Assembly: GCA_902727985.1 (NCBI GenBank)
Contig: CACVAY010000140.1
Location: forward strand, 25,855-65,778
Direction: 5' to 3'
DNA: 39,924 nucleotides
Source of the DNA: an uncultured Thiotrichaceae bacterium
GTDB lineage: Bacteria; Pseudomonadota; Gammaproteobacteria; Thiotrichales; Thiotrichaceae
The position numbers and the translations under genes are program-made. Shown here one piece after another: positions 23,951 through 39,367 of the stretch. The stretch's first letter is position 1; every line of letters begins with the position of its first letter. Under the pieces are notes generated by a model. The model was not told the origin of the DNA. It made no database searches and saw only the letters and a program-made list of their open reading frames with translations.

Positions 23951-25672
23951 TCACACCACCTTCACTTTCATAATTTCTTCACCATCAGGATCGGTTAAAT
24001 GTACCGCACAGGCGATGCATGGATCGAAGCTGTGGATAGTTCGTAGTATTTCAATCGGCTGTTTTGGATCATGCAAATCGGTGCCTTCCAATGCCGCTTC
24101 ATAAGGACCTGCTTGGCCTTTCGCATCACGCGGCCCTGCATTCCATGTGCTTGGTACGACGGCTTGATAATTGTCGATAATGCTATCCTTGATCACAATC
24201 CAATGCGCTAGGGCGCCTCGTGGCGCTTCCATATAACCCACACCACGTGCTTCGCTTGGCCATTGTGAAGGATCCCATTGTGTCTCGTTAAAGGTCTTGG
24301 TATCCCCTGCTTTGATATTGATGATCAGGTCATTCAACCAACCTTGCATGGCATCACCAATAATTTTTGTTTCCAGCGTTCTGGCGGCCGTTCGGCCTAA
24401 GGTTGAGAACAATGCTTCCACGGGGAGATCAAGATGCTTCAGCGTCATATTCACGAGTTCTTGGGTTTGTTCATGCCCTTGAGCATATAGATTTAGTACG
24501 CGTGCCAGTGGCCCAGTTTCCATGACTTGACCATTCCAGCGTGGTGATTTCATCCATGAATAGGATTCATCAACATCAAGCTGCTTATAGGGTGGTTTTG
24601 GTCCGGTGTAATTGAGATTCGTTTCACCGTCATAGGGATGCAGACCTTTTTCCTTACCACCTTCATAGTCATACCAAGAGTGTGCAACGAATTCCTGAAT
24701 CTCATCCTGTTTGCTCATGTCGACTGGATGCACTTTGGTCAAATCACGATTGAGAATAACACCCCCAGGAATCATAAATGATGACGAATCACCCATGCCA
24801 TTGCTTGGGAAATCGCCATAGCAAAGGAAGTTACCAACGCCCTCACCTTGCTTACCCCATTCTTTGTAATAGCTCGCGATAGTTAAGGTATCTGGGATAT
24901 ACACTTGCTCAACGAAGGTCATCATTTCGGTGATAATGTCTTGCACCTGACTCAAGCGTTTCATATTGATGGCTGAATCTGAGTTCAGGTCGATTGGGCA
25001 AGGCACGCCACCCACTAAAAAGTTTGGATGCGGATTTTTACCGCCAAAGATGGTGTGCAATTTAACGACATTACGTTGCCAAGTTAGCGCTTCCAAATAG
25101 TGAGATACCGCCATCAAATTGGCTTCAGGTGGTAATTTATAGGCAGGATGCCCCCAATAACCTTTGGCGAAGATACCTAGCTGTCCTCCCTCAACAAACC
25201 CTTTGAGCTTTTTGCGCATATCCGAGAAGTAGCCAGGTGAGGATTTTGGCCAATGCGGTGATACGCTCTGCGCTAATTCAGAAGTCGCCTTAGGATCAGC
25301 CGACAATGCCGATACGACATCCACCCAATCCAGTGCGTGCAAATGATAAAAATGCATCACATGGTCATGCACATATTGTGAGGCGACCATCAAGTTACGG
25401 ATAATTTCAGCATTCTTGGGGATTTTATAATCCAGCGCATCTTCCACGGCTCGTACAGAAGCGATGCCATGCACCAAGGTACATACTCCACAAATACGCT
25501 GTGCAAATGCCCACGCATCACGCGGATCTCGCCCTTGCATAATCAGCTCAATGCCGCGCACCATCGTGCCAGAGGAATAAGCCTGTTCAATGGTATTACC
25601 ATTCATTTGCGCTTCGACACGCAGATGGCCTTCGATACGGGTAATGGGGTCAACTACAACACGTTCACTCAT
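23951..25672 (-). CDS. hynL: [NiFe]-hydrogenase large subunit (Isp-type, HynL)
   Basis: The catalytic subunit, 573 residues from ATG 25672, is chosen because GAGAGAAAG precedes this ATG and it gives the family start V-V-D-P-I-T-R-I-E-G-H-L. The four Ni/Fe-binding cysteines are in R-I-C-G-V-C-T (Cys61, Cys64) and D-P-C-I-A-C-A-V-H (Cys552, Cys555). The 15 residues after His558 are the C-terminal peptide that the maturation protease removes after nickel insertion. The pattern fits group 1 uptake or bidirectional hydrogenases. It is the last gene of the leftward operon, separated from hynS by isp1, isp2 and an unassigned gene, the hallmark of Isp-type enzymes (HydDB group 1e). A 77-base gap precedes it, unlike the overlaps upstream. 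Confidence 0.95.
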   Translation of the reverse strand: MSERVVVDPITRIEGHLRVEAQMNGNTIEQAYSSGTMVRGIELIMQGRDPRDAWAFAQRICGVCTLVHGIASVRAVEDALDYKIPKNAEIIRNLMVASQYVHDHVMHFYHLHALDWVDVVSALSADPKATSELAQSVSPHWPKSSPGYFSDMRKKLKGFVEGGQLGIFAKGYWGHPAYKLPPEANLMAVSHYLEALTWQRNVVKLHTIFGGKNPHPNFLVGGVPCPIDLNSDSAINMKRLSQVQDIITEMMTFVEQVYIPDTLTIASYYKEWGKQGEGVGNFLCYGDFPSNGMGDSSSFMIPGGVILNRDLTKVHPVDMSKQDEIQEFVAHSWYDYEGGKEKGLHPYDGETNLNYTGPKPPYKQLDVDESYSWMKSPRWNGQVMETGPLARVLNLYAQGHEQTQELVNMTLKHLDLPVEALFSTLGRTAARTLETKIIGDAMQGWLNDLIINIKAGDTKTFNETQWDPSQWPSEARGVGYMEAPRGALAHWIVIKDSIIDNYQAVVPSTWNAGPRDAKGQAGPYEAALEGTDLHDPKQPIEILRTIHSFDPCIACAVHLTDPDGEEIMKVKVV

Positions 25673-25749
25673 GATTACTTTCTCTCTGTGATCCATCCTT
25701 CCCATGCTCCGTACATTCAGTCACTTGAGAAAGGGATAGGTCTTATCAG

Positions 25750-26220
25750 CTAATCAGCCAAGAATTTATTAATAATATCGTATTGATTTTGTGCTTCAGG
25801 ATTAACGGAATCATCATCCTTGGCAATCAATGCACAGTTTCGTGCCATACGACAGCTTTGTACGGTTTGCCATAGCGGATCTTTAGCAACACATTGCCCT
25901 TCTGGAGCAACGACGGCTGTTGCTGCTCTAGCAACAAAATGTACGGCTTGGTCATCCCAATCACAGTCAGCACCACAGCGTGTCCGACTATCAATCATCG
26001 CGCGTTTGACTGCCTTAAAAACATCCTCTAGTTCTTCAGGCAAGGCTACAGGATCATGCGCGGTTCTAATCGCTCGACTTACCCGGATGTCATCCGTTAG
26101 GAAAAGCACACTACTTACAAACGATGCTCCGACTTCACGCTTGTCTTGCACACTCAGTTTCTTTAGCACCGACCGTAATTCAGTATCGTTGCTGACCTTC
26201 TTAGCCGCTAACTCTGTCAT
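25750..26220 (-). CDS. Unassigned cysteine-containing protein within the hydrogenase operon
   Basis: I do not recognise a family. The 156-residue soluble protein has five cysteines, at 82, 86, 110, 123 and 129. They are grouped as R-C-G-A-D-C-D-W-D-D, E-G-Q-C, and S-C-R-M-A-R-N-C, with histidines at 55 and 94. That could suit a metal or iron-sulfur site, though no standard ferredoxin or rubredoxin spacing is present. There is no signal peptide or transmembrane helix. Its ATG overlaps the isp2 stop by four bases (ATGA), so it is translationally coupled to the Isp2 subunit and belongs to the operon. Position and composition suggest an electron-transfer, assembly or regulatory partner of Isp2 or HynL. 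Characterised Isp operons, as I recall them, are hynS-isp1-isp2-hynL without it. Confidence 0.85.
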   Translation of the reverse strand: MTELAAKKVSNDTELRSVLKKLSVQDKREVGASFVSSVLFLTDDIRVSRAIRTAHDPVALPEELEDVFKAVKRAMIDSRTRCGADCDWDDQAVHFVARAATAVVAPEGQCVAKDPLWQTVQSCRMARNCALIAKDDDSVNPEAQNQYDIINKFLAD

Positions 26221-27503
26221 GATGTTTCCTCCTCAACAGGTTTATCCTCTTTCAAATGCTCTGCTAGCATTTCGGTAAGCCCCAAGATTGGAATATCCAT
26301 TTCATTAATCTCCAAGCCATCTTCCAATTGAATACGGCAGTTCGCACAGGCTGTTACTACAACGTCTATATCCAGTGATTCCAGTTGCTTTTTCTTGCGA
26401 TTGAAAGCCTTATTACGCACCTTATCAGCATCTTCATTCGCGCTAACGCCACCACCAGCACCGCAACACCAGTTCATCACACCGGAATCCTCCATTTCTA
26501 CAAAATTGGGAGCGATCATATCCAGTAGATTACGTGGCTGCTCAACCACTCCGCCTCTGCGGACTAATTGGCAGGGATCATGGAAGGTTAATTTCGCTTC
26601 TTCTATACCTTCGGTTTTCAGCAAGCCCTCAGCTCTGAGTTCATCTAACACTTCGAGAATATGCTGTACCTTGAAGCCAAATTCTTTATGCACAAGATTA
26701 GGCCCTTCCCAACGAATTGCGGTATAGGCATGTCCGCATTCTGGGCTAATCACTGTTTTGACCTTGAGCTTTTCGGCAGCCGCAACCACTCGGCCTACCA
26801 GTTCAGCGGCGATATCTGAAGAACCGATTTGAATACCTGAGTTAGTTGCTTCGAAAGCCTCAGAACATAGCGTCCACGTTTTACCAGCCTGATGGAAAAT
26901 TCGCGTTATCGCATGCAGATATTCGGGATAATTCATGATTTCCATGGAAGACAACAAGACCAGATATTCAGCACCTTCAACATCCATCGGGATCGCTAAA
27001 CCTGTGTCTTTTTCAGCATGCTTAATCTGTGCTTTCAGTGCAGGAAGTCGCACTCCCATAGGACTGCCAATTTCAACAGCTCGTTCGGATGCGCCGATTA
27101 ATCCTTCTGGCGCAAAACCACCAGCCGACATGCCTTCGCGCATTTTGCGAATCATGCCAGTAATGTCGTTCCCAACAGGGCAAACCATGCTGCAACGTCC
27201 ACAAAGCGTGCAGGTGTTGTAAACCTTGCTTTGCCACTTCTCCAGCTCTTCTTCAGTAATCGGTTTGCTCAGTCCCAATGCTTTCTTGGCACGCCCTAAT
27301 AACGTATATTCCTGCTCCCACAAGCGCCGCATCGGTTCCACTTTGTAGATCGGCGTATAGGTAGGACAACCTGTCTCTGTATGAAATAGACAAGCATCCG
27401 CACACATACCGCAATGTGTACAACTACTAAAAAAAGCCGCCACAGGTGCATCAATCTGTTCTTTTAGGGCTGCAATGCCGCGTTCTAAACTTGCTTCACT
27501 CAT
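26217..27503 (-). CDS. isp2: Isp2: HdrD-like iron-sulfur electron-transfer subunit
   Basis: The 428-residue protein has two N-terminal [4Fe-4S] ferredoxin motifs (Cys28, 31, 34, 38 and Cys98, 101, 104, 108 with C-x-x-C-x-x-C-x-x-x-C-P). A C-terminal CCG domain follows with C-X34-C-C-X38-C-x-x-C, matching the noncubane cluster-binding motif of heterodisulfide reductase HdrD/HdrB. A first CCG copy (around C-S-E-A-F-E and S-P-E-C-G-H) looks degenerate. No membrane segment is present, so it probably docks on Isp1 at the cytoplasmic face. It overlaps isp1 and the following gene by four bases each. In sulfur-metabolising bacteria Isp1/Isp2 connect the HynSL hydrogenase to electron carriers, and DsrM/DsrK is the closest known analogue. 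Confidence 0.93.
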   Translation of the reverse strand: MSEASLERGIAALKEQIDAPVAAFFSSCTHCGMCADACLFHTETGCPTYTPIYKVEPMRRLWEQEYTLLGRAKKALGLSKPITEEELEKWQSKVYNTCTLCGRCSMVCPVGNDITGMIRKMREGMSAGGFAPEGLIGASERAVEIGSPMGVRLPALKAQIKHAEKDTGLAIPMDVEGAEYLVLLSSMEIMNYPEYLHAITRIFHQAGKTWTLCSEAFEATNSGIQIGSSDIAAELVGRVVAAAEKLKVKTVISPECGHAYTAIRWEGPNLVHKEFGFKVQHILEVLDELRAEGLLKTEGIEEAKLTFHDPCQLVRRGGVVEQPRNLLDMIAPNFVEMEDSGVMNWCCGAGGGVSANEDADKVRNKAFNRKKKQLESLDIDVVVTACANCRIQLEDGLEINEMDIPILGLTEMLAEHLKEDKPVEEETS

Positions 27504-28162
27504 GACTTCACTCCTTTTTCTCCCATCATTGATCCGCTATACCAACGCGCTATAAACAAGGTGAAGGCGTGAGATAATTTGGTAAATGGGAGGAAAATCA
27601 TTAGTAACTCGACAGACAGGATGTGTATACCTAACATCCAGTTATAGTTGAGGAAAAGGTGGTGATAGCTCAAATAGCCTGTGATCAATGGCACAAAGGT
27701 TAAGGCCCATACGAAGTAGTCTTGTTTGGTTGATAAAAACTTCAGGACCGGGTTGGTTAAACGATGATATAAAATCGCCAATAGCGCTATCATCGTAAGC
27801 ACCGCGAATAAATCGACAATTGGCGTGCTTATGGAAGGCCATCCAAAACCAAATATGCCTTCAAACAAACTGATGTGTGGAGCGAGAAGGAAGATCACCA
27901 CGAATAAGCCAATGTGCAGTACATAACCCGTCACAATGGTAAACATAGAGCGTCTTAAGGTGTTCTTATCTCTGGGTAAAGATCGCGTTAGAATATTACG
28001 AAAACCTTCCTTGAAGCCGCTACCTCGTGTTACCGCCAGATTCTTTTTATGCCCTAGCGTAAGAATCTCAAACAAGCGCAACACAACACCGAATACGAAG
28101 ATGACAGTTGCAATCTGCAATCCGGTTCCCCGTACCCAGAGTAGAAAATCTGCTGAGTTCAT
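27500..28162 (-). CDS. isp1: Isp1: NarI/DsrM-like membrane cytochrome b subunit
   Basis: The 220-residue integral membrane protein has about five transmembrane helices (near residues 14-32, 78-98, 112-130, 148-165 and 175-198). Histidines are placed as heme b ligands in G-Y-V-L-H-I-G, M-L-G-I-H-I-L and L-S-H-A-F, as in nitrate reductase gamma subunits (NarI, PF02665) and DsrM. It would carry electrons between periplasmic HynS and cytoplasmic Isp2 or the quinone pool. The start ATG 28162 directly abuts the hynS stop and the end overlaps isp2 (ATGA), so expression is tightly coupled. Confidence 0.92.
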   Translation of the reverse strand: MNSADFLLWVRGTGLQIATVIFVFGVVLRLFEILTLGHKKNLAVTRGSGFKEGFRNILTRSLPRDKNTLRRSMFTIVTGYVLHIGLFVVIFLLAPHISLFEGIFGFGWPSISTPIVDLFAVLTMIALLAILYHRLTNPVLKFLSTKQDYFVWALTFVPLITGYLSYHHLFLNYNWMLGIHILSVELLMIFLPFTKLSHAFTLFIARWYSGSMMGEKGVKS

Positions 28163-29281
28163 TTAGCTATCCTCCGCTTCTGTTTTTGACGGGTCATTTC
28201 TACGTAAATCATGAATGGTGACGGTTTGATGATCAGTAGCGACATCTGCTTTCTTTTTCCGGTTCAGCGCTGCGATGCCGAGACCGGCTACCGCACCAGC
28301 ACCCAAGGCATAAGCGGCTGTTTGACTCACATCCACCGCAGGTTGCGATAGCGCCTTATAAAAACCGCCCATATCCCAGAAATTGGGTTCTGAACAACCT
28401 AAGCAACCATGACCTGACTCAATAGGGAAACTGGTTCCTTCGTTCCATTTAGCCGTTGCACAAGCGTTGTAGGTAATCGGCCCTTTACAACCCAGTTTGA
28501 ATAAGCACCAACCTTTCTTTGCCCCTTCATCATCGAAAGTTTCTGCAAATTCGCCACGCTCATAGAAGGGACGACGATAACAACGATCATGAATATTATT
28601 GCCATAAAAGACTTTTGGGCGACCTAGCTCATCAAGCTCAGGGATTGTGCCAAAGGTGAGAAAGTGCGCGAGTACACCAGTAATCACCACGGGAATAGGC
28701 GGACAACCTGACACATTAACAATCGGCTTATCTTTGATAATATCGCTGACTGATACAGCACCCGTCGGATTTGGATTGGCCTTGGGAATCCCACCGAAGG
28801 TTGCACAGGTTCCAACAGCTACAATCGCTGCTGCTCCTTTCGCGGTTTCTTTCAACATATCAAGGTTAGAGATACCTGCAATGGTGGAATATCCAGGATT
28901 ACCTAATGGAATCGAACCATCCACGACCAGAATGTACTTTCCCCAGTTCTCCTTCATCGCTTCTTCACGTGCTTCTTCTGCGGCATCACCCGCAGCTGCT
29001 TGTAAGGTATGTTGATAATCTAAAGAAATCGCATCGAAGATCAAACCTTCGACGGTGGGAGAATGGGATCGGGTTAAGGATTCGGCACAGCCTGTGCATT
29101 CCTGAAAAGACAACCAAATAACGGATGGCCGTCTTGCTGATTCAAGTGCTGCGGCAATAGCGGGAACCATGCTTGGCGGAAGTGCCATTATGGATGCTGC
29201 TGTTGCACAAAATTTTAAGAATCCTCGGCGAGATACACCGTTTCTTGTTAGCGATTCTTTGAGCGTTTCATCATGTGACAT
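28163..29281 (-). CDS. hynS: [NiFe]-hydrogenase small subunit (HynS) with Tat signal
   Basis: The start ATG 29281 (372 residues) is chosen because GAGGAG ends five bases upstream; a GTG two codons earlier overlaps it. A twin-arginine signal S-R-R-G-F-L-K-F (Arg18, Arg19) targets the folded heterodimer to the periplasmic side, carrying HynL along. Cluster ligands are visible: proximal E-C-T-G-C (Cys62, Cys65), V-G-T-C and G-C-P-P; distal H-D-R-C and W-C-L-F-K-L-G-C; medial C-A-T-A and C-L-G-C-S-E-P-N-F-W-D. A C-terminal hydrophobic helix (about 315-335) followed by R-K-K-K anchors it in the membrane. It overlaps nothing upstream but abuts isp1. Family knowledge: three Fe-S clusters relay electrons from the NiFe centre. 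Confidence 0.96.
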   Translation of the reverse strand: MSHDETLKESLTRNGVSRRGFLKFCATAASIMALPPSMVPAIAAALESARRPSVIWLSFQECTGCAESLTRSHSPTVEGLIFDAISLDYQHTLQAAAGDAAEEAREEAMKENWGKYILVVDGSIPLGNPGYSTIAGISNLDMLKETAKGAAAIVAVGTCATFGGIPKANPNPTGAVSVSDIIKDKPIVNVSGCPPIPVVITGVLAHFLTFGTIPELDELGRPKVFYGNNIHDRCYRRPFYERGEFAETFDDEGAKKGWCLFKLGCKGPITYNACATAKWNEGTSFPIESGHGCLGCSEPNFWDMGGFYKALSQPAVDVSQTAAYALGAGAVAGLGIAALNRKKKADVATDHQTVTIHDLRRNDPSKTEAEDS

Positions 29282-29312
29282 GTTCACTCCTCGCGTGTTG
29301 TTTTTTGTAGTA

Positions 29313-29699
29313 CTAAACCAATAGTTGATGGGTCAATTGCTCTAGTGCTACTTCAATATCTTCGTGTTGTGACGCCAAAATCGATGGCAGTTTGCTGATT
29401 TCGATAAACTTACCGAGTATTTCGTCCTCGGTGTTGTAGTGAGTGATTAACCAGGCACCGGAAAAAGCGGTTTCATTTATCGTAGACTTGCCAAGGGCAT
29501 TCAATGTTGCTGATAATTCGCCTTGACCGAGCATGGCTTCGATTCTGGCTTCTTCACCTGGAGCCATGGGGATAGCTCGCAAATCGATAATGGTTGATTC
29601 ACCGTCATCTAATAATTTCCGAAGTGCATGACGAATTTCGTGCAAAATCAGGATGTCATTGCCTGTATCCAACGAAGCACATGTATTTACATTAGACAT
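29313..29699 (-). CDS. Short HupH/HyaF-like hydrogenase maturation protein
   Basis: The start is ATG 29699 (128 residues), which overlaps the hupD stop by eight bases; a longer frame runs inside hupD and is not credible. The core I-D-L-R-A-I-P-M-A-P-G-E-E-A-R-I-E, then G-Q-G-E-L-S-A-T-L, G-K-S-T-I-N-E-T-A-F-S-G-A-W-L-I-T-H and E-I-S-K-L-P-S-I-L matches the HupH C-terminal domain (PF04809) of HyaF/HupH proteins. These assist maturation of the small subunit and oxygen protection. HyaF and HupH are about 280 residues, with additional sequence; only this domain is present here. Such short versions occur beside Isp-type hydrogenases. It probably acts as a cytoplasmic chaperone for HynS before Tat export. 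Confidence 0.85.
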   Translation of the reverse strand: MSNVNTCASLDTGNDILILHEIRHALRKLLDDGESTIIDLRAIPMAPGEEARIEAMLGQGELSATLNALGKSTINETAFSGAWLITHYNTEDEILGKFIEISKLPSILASQHEDIEVALEQLTHQLLV

Positions 29700-30174
29700 G
29701 AGCCACCTCGGCTTGCTTCCATTGAGATAACAAATCAAGCGCATGCTGGACAGCGACGGGAACCGCTTTCTGTACATCTTCAGACAAGGAATCACCCCAA
29801 TCGATAATCTCGGGTTGAATACCTATTAATGCACGTTGCTCTGGGAGAGATTCAGTGAGGCGTGAGATATCCAACAGATCAAGCAAACCAATCTCATGTA
29901 CGCTTCTTTTGCATGCACCTAAAAACTGATCCATTTGTTCGTTCACCATGCAATCAACCGTCCCGGCCTGCCCCTGTAATTGCGCCGCATCTATGACAAT
30001 AAGATTATCTGCATCGCTTACTGCACCCGCTAAGGTGAAGCTCAGAGTACCTCCATCCAGATACAACGTGTCTTCCGTTTCAGGATGTGTTTTTTGCAGC
30101 TCATTAAGGACATGTAACCCAGCTCCTTCATCGCTGAGCAGTTTGTTACCAATCGCTAGCACAAGTGTCTTCAT
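29692..30174 (-). CDS. hupD: Hydrogenase maturation endopeptidase (HupD/HynD/HyaD family)
   Basis: The 160-residue nickel-dependent endopeptidase trims the C-terminal extension of HynL after NiFe cofactor insertion. Key residues are G-N-K-L-L-S-D-E-G-A-G (Asp15, Glu16, the first nickel ligand), the second acidic site in V-I-D-A-A-Q (about Asp62), and H-E-I-G-L with the His ligand near residue 93. Its substrate is in the same operon, where HynL carries the 15-residue tail. It is the first gene of the leftward operon, about 20 bases downstream of a predicted transcription start controlled by an FNR-like site. Confidence 0.94.
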   Translation of the reverse strand: MKTLVLAIGNKLLSDEGAGLHVLNELQKTHPETEDTLYLDGGTLSFTLAGAVSDADNLIVIDAAQLQGQAGTVDCMVNEQMDQFLGACKRSVHEIGLLDLLDISRLTESLPEQRALIGIQPEIIDWGDSLSEDVQKAVPVAVQHALDLLSQWKQAEVAHV

Positions 30175-36294: not shown

Positions 36295-36384
36295 CACGAT
36301 TCAACATACATACTAACCATAAAAACAGGCTGAATCGGCATACAGAAACAACGAAAAACTATAATAATAATGAGGAGAGTAACG

Positions 36385-37524
36385 TTGAAAGTCATTACAA
36401 CGAACTTCAAGAAACACACCGGCTGGAGTAGCCCCCTCCCCTATCTCGATTCTCCCCAAACACTGATACTTATTTTTGGTGCACCATCATTTATTGACAA
36501 TCACGAACCTTTCCTTGAGCTGAAAGAAAAATATCCAACATCGATCATTGCCGGCTGCTCAACCGCTGGAGAAATCTTTGATGACCAGGTTTTAGATGAG
36601 TCCTTAGTGGTTTCATTCACCCGCTTTACCCACACCCATTTACGTTTGTACACCACACCCATTTCGGACATGGAGCAGTCACTTAAAACGGGTTCCAACA
36701 TTGCCAAAAATTTGAAAGATAATGAACTCTCCTCTGTACTGGTCTTAACTGATGGTTTACTCGTCAATGGAACGGACTTCATCAAAGGTGTTAACTCACA
36801 ATTCGAAGAAAAAATTCTTGTTACTGGCGGCTTAGCTGGTGATGGTGGAAACTTCAAACAAACATGGATTTTAGCAGATGGTATTCCTCAATCAGGCTAT
36901 GCCTGTGGAATTGGCTTTTATGGTGATGCCATTAAAATCGATCACGGCTCACAAGGAGGCTGGAAAGCGTTTGGTCCAGAACGCCTAGTGACAAAGTCTC
37001 ACAATAATGTTCTTTATGAACTAGACGACAAACCCGCTTTGGAACTCTACAAGGGTTACCTCGGTGAAATGGCAGATGGTCTTCCTGCCACAGGCTTACG
37101 TTACCCCTTATCACTTTATGACAAATCGTCAAACAAGAAACTGGTACGAACCATTCTTGCCGTCAATGAAGACGAACAATCATTAACTTTTGCTGGTGAT
37201 ATTCCAAACGGCCATAGTGTCCAACTGATGTATGCTACCTTTGACAACTTAATTGATGGCGCTGAAGACGCTGCTAAGATGCTTGATATCAATGCAACAC
37301 CAGAACAAGAAGTATTAGCGATTGCAATTAGTTGCGTTGGACGTCGCATGGTCATGGAAGAAGACCCTGGTGCAGAACTCGAAGCCGTTAAAGAATCTCT
37401 GCCAGAACAAACTAAACAGGTCGGATTTTATTCATACGGAGAGCTTTCCCCCTGTCTCAAAAACGGCATTTGCGACCTTCATAACCAGACAATGACTTTG
37501 ACTACGATCTATGAACAAGAATAA
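36385..37524 (+). CDS. FIST-domain sensor protein (NosP-like)
   Basis: The start is TTG 36385 (379 residues) because AGGAG lies seven bases upstream; an ATG at 36370 overlaps that site. FIST_N (about residues 20-210, with I-A-G-C-S-T-A-G-E-I and T-G-G-L-A-G-D-G) and FIST_C (about 215-375, ending G-F-Y-S-Y-G-E-L-S-P ... L-H-N-Q-T-M-T-L-T-T) fill the protein. There is no signal peptide or membrane helix. The gene overlaps a histidine kinase by 14 bases. That pairing and the length match NosP, a heme-containing nitric-oxide sensor that controls its co-cistronic kinase in Pseudomonas, Legionella and Vibrio. Heme binding cannot be shown from sequence here; other FIST proteins may bind small ligands such as amino acids. 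Confidence 0.9.
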   Translation: MKVITTNFKKHTGWSSPLPYLDSPQTLILIFGAPSFIDNHEPFLELKEKYPTSIIAGCSTAGEIFDDQVLDESLVVSFTRFTHTHLRLYTTPISDMEQSLKTGSNIAKNLKDNELSSVLVLTDGLLVNGTDFIKGVNSQFEEKILVTGGLAGDGGNFKQTWILADGIPQSGYACGIGFYGDAIKIDHGSQGGWKAFGPERLVTKSHNNVLYELDDKPALELYKGYLGEMADGLPATGLRYPLSLYDKSSNKKLVRTILAVNEDEQSLTFAGDIPNGHSVQLMYATFDNLIDGAEDAAKMLDINATPEQEVLAIAISCVGRRMVMEEDPGAELEAVKESLPEQTKQVGFYSYGELSPCLKNGICDLHNQTMTLTTIYEQE

Positions 37525-39367
37525 TAAAACTGAAAAGCTCGAACGCTCGCTTACACGCCAACTGAAATCTGTCAACCTTCACTTTGATGAGGTTCCTCCT
37601 GATCTTGAGCAATGGCAGGCTTTCCTTAATTCTGTCAATAGCGCTTATGTAGGAAACAAAGAGACACGTTATATTCTTGAAAGATCACTCGACGAATCTT
37701 CTCAAGAAATGAGCAAGTTGTATGAAGACTTAAAGCAGGAGACAGAACAGCGTATCAAAGCCTTGCAAGAGTCGGACGAAAAAACCCGATTCATGGCAAA
37801 TATGAGTCATGAGATACGCACCCCTATCAATGGGGTACTCGGGTCATTAGAAATTGTTAAAAATAATACCATCTTAAATAAGCAACAAAAGCTGTTCGTT
37901 GGAACAGCGGCCAAATCAGCTGAAAATTTACTCGATATCATTAATAATATACTCGATTTCTCGAAAATTAGTTCTGATCAGCTTGAGTTAGAAAATATCA
38001 ACTTCGACATCTACCAATTGGTAGAAGACATTACCAGCATCGCATACGTGAATGCCAATGATAAAGGCATCGATGTCAGTTGGAACATAGATAAAGCCAT
38101 ACCTGCACGCATTAAAGGAGACCCAACAAAAACCAGACAAATCTTGTCAAACCTCTTAAGCAATGCGATTAAATTCACAGAAAAAGGAAGCGTCACAACA
38201 CGCATTAGTCTGCTCAAAGAGGACTTGGCTAGTTGTAAACTTCGATTAGAGGTAGAAGATACTGGAATCGGTATTTCACCTGAAATGCAACAAAACATTT
38301 TTGACGCGTTTATCCAAGAGGATTCGTCGACGACACGTCGCTATGGTGGAACCGGTTTAGGTTTAACGATTATCAAAGAACTCACTCAGTTGATGGGTGG
38401 ACAAGTTTTTGTGAAAAGCAACAAAGGACAGGGCACCACTTTTTGGGCAGATATTCCTTTTGAAACCCTGGTCGATGAGAACATAGATGCCTTCGATGAT
38501 AGCTTGTCAGGATTGCGCATTCTGGCGGTTGACGAAGATAAAGCTAACCTTTCTATTCTTGAGCACTACCTAACACACTGGAACATCGACGTAGATGTCA
38601 CTAGTTCTGCAGGTGAAGGTCTAAACTACCTTAGTAATAGTCTTGCCGTGGCTAATCCCTATGATATTTTCATTGTTGATTGGTTTTTATCAGATGCTCA
38701 GGGGCTAGAATTCTCCAGAGCCATTAATACGCAAGAAGCCTTTAGGAATATTCCCAAAATCATGCTCAACCCCAGCAGCGAACAACTGCAAAAAATCCCG
38801 GGAATCACGTTAGAAAAACCCATTCGTAACAATATGCTAAAAGATGTCTTACTTGAATGCCTGCATGCACATGGCAACAAGCATCTTCAACGTATACAGA
38901 AAAAGAAAACCTTAGAAGCTAATTTGAATACTCTTAAGAAAACGCAAATGAAACCTCGTAAAAAAGACCCCAACACAATTGATGTATTACTTGCAGAAGA
39001 TAACGAGCTGAATGCGTTAATTGCTGTCACCATGATGGAAGAAATGAACTTGACTGTGCGGCATGTAAGCGATGGAAAACAAGCCCTAAATGCCATGAAA
39101 ATAGCTAAATTTCATATCGTATTAATGGACATGCACATGCCTGTTATGGATGGCTATGAGGCCACACAAAAAATCCGTGAATGGGAACGTGAAATGCAAA
39201 AAGAACCGATTACTATCATTGCATTGACGGCCAATGCACTTTCAGGTGATAGAGAAAAGTGTCTGGCTGAAGGAATGAATGATTACGTATCAAAACCGGT
39301 TACCCAAGAAGGTCTCACAAGCGTTGTTTCGCGCTGGATTGATCGTGCTTTATTAGCTGAAGCTTGA
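37511..39367 (+). CDS. Soluble hybrid histidine kinase (HisKA-HATPase-REC-REC)
   Basis: The 618-residue kinase has no transmembrane segment or own sensor domain. Residues 25-90 form a coiled-coil signalling helix (P-P-D-L-E-Q-W-Q-A-F-L and L-E-R-S-L-D-E-S-S-Q-E-M-S-K-L), typical of kinases encoded next to FIST proteins. HisKA has M-S-H-E-I-R-T-P with phospho-acceptor His100. HATPase_c shows N-A-I-K-F-T-E-K-G, D-T-G-I-G-I, and Y-G-G-T-G-L-G-L. The first receiver (about 335-455) is divergent but keeps I-V-D-W and a distal Lys. The second (about 490-615) is classic, with L-A-E-D-N, L-M-D-M-H-M-P-V-M-D-G and a C-terminal S-K-P. There is no Hpt domain, so a separate phosphotransfer protein is expected. 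Translation is coupled to the FIST gene. Confidence 0.93.
   Translation: MNKNNKTEKLERSLTRQLKSVNLHFDEVPPDLEQWQAFLNSVNSAYVGNKETRYILERSLDESSQEMSKLYEDLKQETEQRIKALQESDEKTRFMANMSHEIRTPINGVLGSLEIVKNNTILNKQQKLFVGTAAKSAENLLDIINNILDFSKISSDQLELENINFDIYQLVEDITSIAYVNANDKGIDVSWNIDKAIPARIKGDPTKTRQILSNLLSNAIKFTEKGSVTTRISLLKEDLASCKLRLEVEDTGIGISPEMQQNIFDAFIQEDSSTTRRYGGTGLGLTIIKELTQLMGGQVFVKSNKGQGTTFWADIPFETLVDENIDAFDDSLSGLRILAVDEDKANLSILEHYLTHWNIDVDVTSSAGEGLNYLSNSLAVANPYDIFIVDWFLSDAQGLEFSRAINTQEAFRNIPKIMLNPSSEQLQKIPGITLEKPIRNNMLKDVLLECLHAHGNKHLQRIQKKKTLEANLNTLKKTQMKPRKKDPNTIDVLLAEDNELNALIAVTMMEEMNLTVRHVSDGKQALNAMKIAKFHIVLMDMHMPVMDGYEATQKIREWEREMQKEPITIIALTANALSGDREKCLAEGMNDYVSKPVTQEGLTSVVSRWIDRALLAEA

Follow-up and report, generated by a model that had tools for sequence, protein, structure and literature searches.

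A family of small, predicted helical proteins encoded between isp2 and hynL in Isp-type [NiFe] hydrogenase operons

The Isp-type hydrogenase operon of an uncultured Thiotrichaceae bacterium contains, between isp2 and hynL, a gene for a 156-residue protein (labelled X here) that is an undescribed extra component of the operon and belongs to a family absent from Pfam. Its reading frame is under purifying selection, and in the one class that we sampled X is confined to genomes with Isp2. The predicted fold of X is like that of DUF416 and probably like that of the immunity protein SsdAI. From these results we tentatively propose, at a little under an even chance, that X is a soluble, cytoplasmic helical accessory factor of Isp-type [NiFe] hydrogenases that binds Isp2, a partner and function that we infer from gene arrangement and predicted fold.

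The window, that is, the whole stretch of 39,924 nucleotides analysed here, carries the hydrogenase operon on its minus strand, with the following features.

23951-25705 (ORF limit), minus strand: hynL, hydrogenase large subunit (ORF and Pfam)
25750-26220, minus strand: X, all-helical protein of 156 residues from no known sequence family (ORF, Pfam search and predicted fold)
26217-26220, minus strand: ATGA overlap of the X start and the isp2 stop (from the sequence)
26228-26233, minus strand: AGGAGG ribosome-binding site of X, within the end of the isp2 coding region (from the sequence)
26217-27503, minus strand: isp2, DsrK/HdrD-like Fe-S protein with a CCG domain (profile searches)
27500-28162, minus strand: isp1, TmcC/HmcE-like membrane anchor subunit (NCBIfam profiles)
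28163-29287, minus strand: hynS, hydrogenase small subunit with a Tat signal (profile searches, hydA)
29313-29795 (ORF limit, start uncertain), minus strand: hupH-like maturation gene (HupH_C match)
29692-30174, minus strand: hynD, maturation protease (profile searches)

The best NCBIfam profiles were DsrK, HmcF and TmcB for Isp2 and TmcC for Isp1. The hynL ORF (window 23951-25705) opens 11 codons ahead of the likely true start (MSERVVVDPITRIEGH); translation probably begins at the inner ATG that precedes SERVVVDPITRIEGH. The operon resembles Isp-type operons (group 1e, an assignment taken from the Isp operon literature) in the order of its four structural genes, in having hynD and hupH upstream, and in the hyp genes, named by eye, which run opposite to the hydrogenase operon. 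It differs from the Isp operons in the parts of the literature available to us by the additional overlapping gene X between isp2 and hynL. Directly after the hyp genes, at 36370-39367, a FIST-domain gene is followed by a hybrid histidine kinase, a pair that could sense something for the hydrogenase cluster.

The X ORF comprises 156 codons, from an ATG start to a TAG stop, and its AGGAGG motif sits 7 nt upstream of the ATG. The original prediction, of a 156-residue gene between isp2 and hynL that overlaps isp2 by four bases, is thus borne out in its coordinates, its ATGA overlap and its neighbours. The five cysteines (82, 86, 110, 123 and 129) and two histidines (55 and 94) that it named are likewise present. 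The 37 aligned relatives are 29-59% identical to the window X, and dN/dS ranges from 0.03 to 0.23 across nine diverged pairs of relatives, a tenth pair being identical. X is therefore more than a chance ORF. Of the other junctions that could be measured, 20 of 32 show the four-base overlap with isp2 as well, a count for which start codons were picked by a length rule and which includes loci L014 and L045, whose X coding sequences are identical. The overlapping start suggests that X and Isp2 are made in matched amounts through translational coupling.

Searches against known families returned little. Nothing in Pfam, HyaE, HybE and HupH_C included, matches X at E up to 1, and NCBIfam yields a single meaningless match; across the 38 members of our alignment no consistent Pfam family emerged (22 families, each in at most four members, best E 0.015). 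No solved structure matched the X sequence (best E 0.078). Short peptide patterns of X retrieved no relatives from the genome and viral contigs, and neither did tblastn of X against plasmids. The parts available to us of the literature on Isp hydrogenases and DUF416 do not mention X, and the portions seen of PMC4744846 and PMC7787665 hold nothing on it. The 38-row alignment omits L014 (identical in coding sequence to L045), L001-L008 (the window itself or genomes already represented), L059 and L060, and retains the near-identical rows L033/L034 and L012/L013.

Structure prediction was more informative. An AlphaFold model of X built from 23 sequences has seven helices, with a pLDDT of 94.6 and a pTM of 0.90, and a second model, of the Rhodobium sequence, reached 93.6 and 0.89; the two are not independent because their alignments share most rows. 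VIA-align matched 3f7c, 2q9r and 7jtu_B over 137-144 residues, at Z 10.7-11.2; for the two models the rows that followed reached Z 5.8 and 5.5. These scores are to be read in the light of the aligner's own caveat that unrelated helical models may score up to Z 13 by arrangement alone. The gap in Z and the nearly full coverage nevertheless argue for a fold shared by X, DUF416 and 7jtu_B. Foldseek on its own returned no solved structure under E 0.4 for the X model, and the best row in a viral structure library was A0A516MPQ3 (E 0.008).

The DUF416 proteins (PF04222; YjaG, 3f7c and 2q9r) align with the predicted seven-helix fold of X over 139-144 residues at Z 10.9-11.2. At the level of sequence, however, none of the 38 X members matches PF04222 at E up to 1, the hhalign probability against a small, four-sequence DUF416 alignment is about 1.1%, the C-terminal SNxG that is invariant in four aligned DUF416 proteins is missing from X, and X has 156 residues against the 196 of YjaG. 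Membership of DUF416 by sequence was accordingly rejected, as no profile or profile-profile kinship was detected. PF04222 itself was found in none of 66 class genomes, the window's included. The third structure, 7jtu, is the SsdA-SsdAI complex, in which, from the part of PMC7901873 available, SsdAI is exclusively α-helical and forms a large interface with the toxin. Chain B is probably SsdAI, judging by its length of 193 residues. Taken as SsdAI, it matches the X fold at Z 10.7-10.8, but shares 9-10% identity with X and comes from another setting, the X operon having no toxin-like neighbour. The fold of X is predicted with high model confidence, and it is like that of DUF416 and probably like that of SsdAI.

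Given a fold that is probably like that of a protein-binding immunity protein and a start that overlaps isp2, an accessory protein that binds Isp2 is the most economical reading. X would be made in step with Isp2 via the coupled start codon and would act by binding a protein partner, with the cytoplasmic Fe-S subunit Isp2 as the leading candidate; it may then help to assemble the Isp1-Isp2 module or control what docks there. As no export signal is apparent in X by eye, it should be cytoplasmic, whereas HynS bears a Tat signal. In archaeal Isp hydrogenases, Isp2 has been modelled on the cytoplasmic side (PMC11018855, seen in part). Set against this reading are the aligner's warning on helical Z scores, the unconvincing result of Foldseek alone, and three features of the distribution of X described below: its dispensability, its absence from five genomes of the same genus, and a homologue in a genome lacking a match to the [NiFe] hydrogenase family PF00374. 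The absence of Cys82 from a few X copies, also given below, counts against it too.

The tie to Isp-type hydrogenases, which the original prediction had raised, is supported. Among named genomes we found 23 X loci, two of them from one MAG, and all 23 have the order isp2-X-hynL; the carriers include Thiothrix, Sedimenticola, Thiolapillus, Ectothiorhodospiraceae, Arenicellales and the alphaproteobacterium Rhodobium orientis. In a class sample of 369 genomes, 47 have Isp2 (E up to 1e-60) and 71 have HynL matches at that level. X was found in 18 of the 369, or 16 after removal of two weak rows (G074 and G284, E 0.001 and 0.009), the first of which lies antisense to an ORF that by eye resembles carB. 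All 16 fall among the 47 Isp2 genomes (hypergeometric P about 4e-16, or 5e-14 when the two weak rows are counted, values that are overstated because the genomes are related).

The stricter suggestion, that homologues would be restricted to isp2-hynL loci, held in part. Ten of the 16 class carriers have X in the gap, counting G153, whose contig breaks inside isp2. In G055, X follows isp2 and hynL lies on another contig; in G240, X lies 700 nt downstream of hynL. Four carriers (G071, G106, G230, which has two such copies, and G371) hold X away from any hydrogenase gene. For G106 and G371 the X contigs measure 61 and 195 kb, enough to regard X as unlinked, while those of G071 and G230 span just 4-9 kb, so that distant linkage cannot be judged there. 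All four nonetheless have Isp2 (P about 2e-4, overstated, with G106 and G230 belonging to one genus), and the tie is therefore not only one of neighbourhood. In a phylum sample of 398 genomes X was found in three, the window's own included, after removal of two weak rows (G744 and G755, E 0.007-0.008). Of these, G734 has isp2-X-hynL, and G487, which is 90% complete, has a clear X homologue (E 3e-37) but lacks any match to PF00374, and its Isp2-like protein reaches just 31%.

Several observations accompany these loci. In G240 (L052, 7940-9044), the X copy downstream of hynL stands behind a 205-residue protein with weak similarity to DsbD_2. In G487 (L069, 715-1980), the X homologue adjoins a 243-residue ORF whose X-like beginning (MINIDNDTEFNAYI) runs on into a protein with a CxxCH motif, and a sigma-54 regulator lies nearby. 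Second Isp2 homologues, 59-65% identical, occur at G106:C9:119822, G371:C24:42916, G153:C96:3774, G175:C150:4610, G176:C114:5956 and G230:C335:18880. None has a HynL match beside it (the nearest in G106 is about 40 kb off), and a 4Fe-4S ferredoxin-like ORF was seen by eye near the one in G230 (L078). These second copies are possibly Isp1/Isp2 modules that serve another oxidoreductase.

X is also optional. The class sample contains 38 isp2-hynL junctions, ten with X and 28 without, and X is thus dispensable for an Isp hydrogenase; among the 29 junctions with an Isp2 that shares 56% identity or more with that of the window, ten have it. For 26 of 27 measured X-less gaps, the span between alignment ends is -8 to 198 nt, too short for X; the 28th junction (G358) was taken from Isp2 and HynL match coordinates. 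The remaining gap, in G199, is 913 nt long and is filled instead by an unrelated, coiled-coil-like ORF of 250 residues (L071, 5440-6192). A divergent, undetected X hidden in the X-less operons is unlikely given the short gaps and the unrelated G199 ORF. Characterised operons show the same absence: those of Thiocapsa, Allochromatium and Acidithiobacillus are described without X in the portions seen of PMC2621215, PMC7735108 and PMC10892978, in agreement with the order hynS-isp1-isp2-hynL given in the original prediction. The hydrogenase stretches fetched for Methylovirgula HY1 and Bradyrhizobium BTAi1 contained no X. Closer to the window, relatives of X occur in five of 39 near-relative genomes, the window's own included, and X was not found in five other genomes of the window's genus, which may or may not carry a hydrogenase.

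To place this distribution, a HynL plus Isp2 tree was built from 52 of 64 loci, leaving out 12 duplicate or partial ones. X occurs only within the part with close Isp2, which is split off by a branch with a support of 100, and its presence requires nine or ten changes. In a locus set biased towards X carriers, this pattern suggests an ancient gene that was lost or moved several times, though some gains by transfer may have occurred.

The explanation that ranks next after an Isp2-binding accessory is that X acts on HynS or HynL as a chaperone before export, replacing chaperones of the HyaE/HupG or HybE type. The presence of hynD and hupH in the operon, the position of X directly before hynL and the lack of any match to HyaE (PF07449) or HybE (PF11939) in the window's genome all accord with such a role. 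It is unlikely, however, as the gene overlaps isp2 while its distance to hynL, measured in part of the loci, varies; many Isp operons have no X, and X itself has no Pfam match.

The pattern of conserved residues bears on the other alternatives. Trp88, Gln91, Phe95 and Gln146 are invariant in all 38 members, and Arg124 and Glu142 are kept in 37. Among the cysteines, Cys82 is present in 35 and Cys129 in 34, with both together in 31, whereas Cys86, Cys110 and Cys123 are found in 10, 10 and 8. Cys82 is absent from the X of G071, from one of the two G230 copies and from that of G351. All five cysteines occur in three members, at least four in ten, and just two of the five in 22. His94 is kept in 14 members and replaced by Tyr in 24. 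With so few members carrying the extra cysteines, the cysteine-rich X of the window is a local elaboration, one seen also in Sedimenticola-type loci.

DsrC is thought to serve DsrK, and this pair is the model for a reading in which X is a thiol-disulfide carrier or a substrate of the HdrD-like CCG site of Isp2, acting via Cys82 and Cys129. In the predicted fold Cys82, in the loop that follows helix 4, may be close to Cys129, which ends helix 6, and the 31 members with both cysteines fit the idea, as do a proposal, in the part seen of PMC5944118, of a DsrC-bound disulfide as the destination of Isp electrons, and the presence of dsrA in 16 of 16 X genomes (E up to 1e-50, with partial genes in G230 and G241). 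Yet one or both of these cysteines are missing in seven of 38 members, and 25 of the 31 Isp2 genomes without X also have dsrA (Fisher p 0.08). Since dsrA is common with and without X, X does not stand in for Dsr, nor does it clearly depend on it, and we consider the carrier reading rather unlikely. The further notion of X as a DsrC substitute was rejected, there being no anti-correlation with dsrA among the Isp2 genomes. A more specific proposal, in which X serves Isp2 as its own redox partner in the cytoplasm, with a DUF416 fold and a Cys82-Cys129 pair that the HdrD-like site of Isp2 reduces, seems to us quite improbable.

It is improbable, too, that X has a separate job, regulatory or immunity-like, and merely travels with the operon. 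Such a job would suit the DUF416-like and probably immunity-like fold, the G487 homologue in a genome with no PF00374 match, and the X copies that adjoin non-hydrogenase genes, including, by eye, a pilT-like one; but the off-operon copies of the class sample are all in Isp2 genomes, and the gap position recurs across a broad set of hydrogenases. Least probable is the metal or Fe-S site, bound through cysteines and histidines, that the original prediction had put forward: Cys82, 86, 110 and 129 do co-occur in 9 of 38 members (the window, L026, L027, L009 and five Sedimenticola/Thiolapillus/Chromatiaceae loci) and four members have a sub-threshold Pfam match to Metallothio_2 (best E 0.015), but four-cysteine conservation fails in most of the family, Cys110 would lie, in the predicted fold, at the end of helix 5 that is distal to Cys82, and, with Cys82 and Cys129 alone widespread, such a site was rejected as a family trait.

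One described accessory gene invites comparison. Orf2 of Alteromonas macleodii, according to the part seen of PMC3102683, is likewise an unassigned accessory gene of a hydrogenase operon, and maximal activity in E. coli depends on it. The gene at its place on plasmid pAltEZ55, identified by gene order in strain EZ55, a strain other than that of PMC3102683, encodes 407 residues, and the X profile finds nothing in that locus (L063); the identity of X with Orf2 was therefore rejected.

The cytoplasmic target of Isp2 electrons is unsettled. The acceptors proposed, in the portions seen of the respective papers, are a DsrC-bound disulfide (PMC5944118) and low-potential ones such as ferredoxin or NAD (PMC11018855). 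Because its gene overlaps isp2 and, in the sampled class, occurs in Isp2 genomes alone, X offers a direct handle on this question, and it could prove relevant to the heterologous expression of Isp-type hydrogenases. A DUF416-like fold would, moreover, acquire a cellular context. Were the redox-partner proposal to be true, H2 would have a thiol-disulfide route of its own into sulfur metabolism, a counterpart of DsrK-DsrC.
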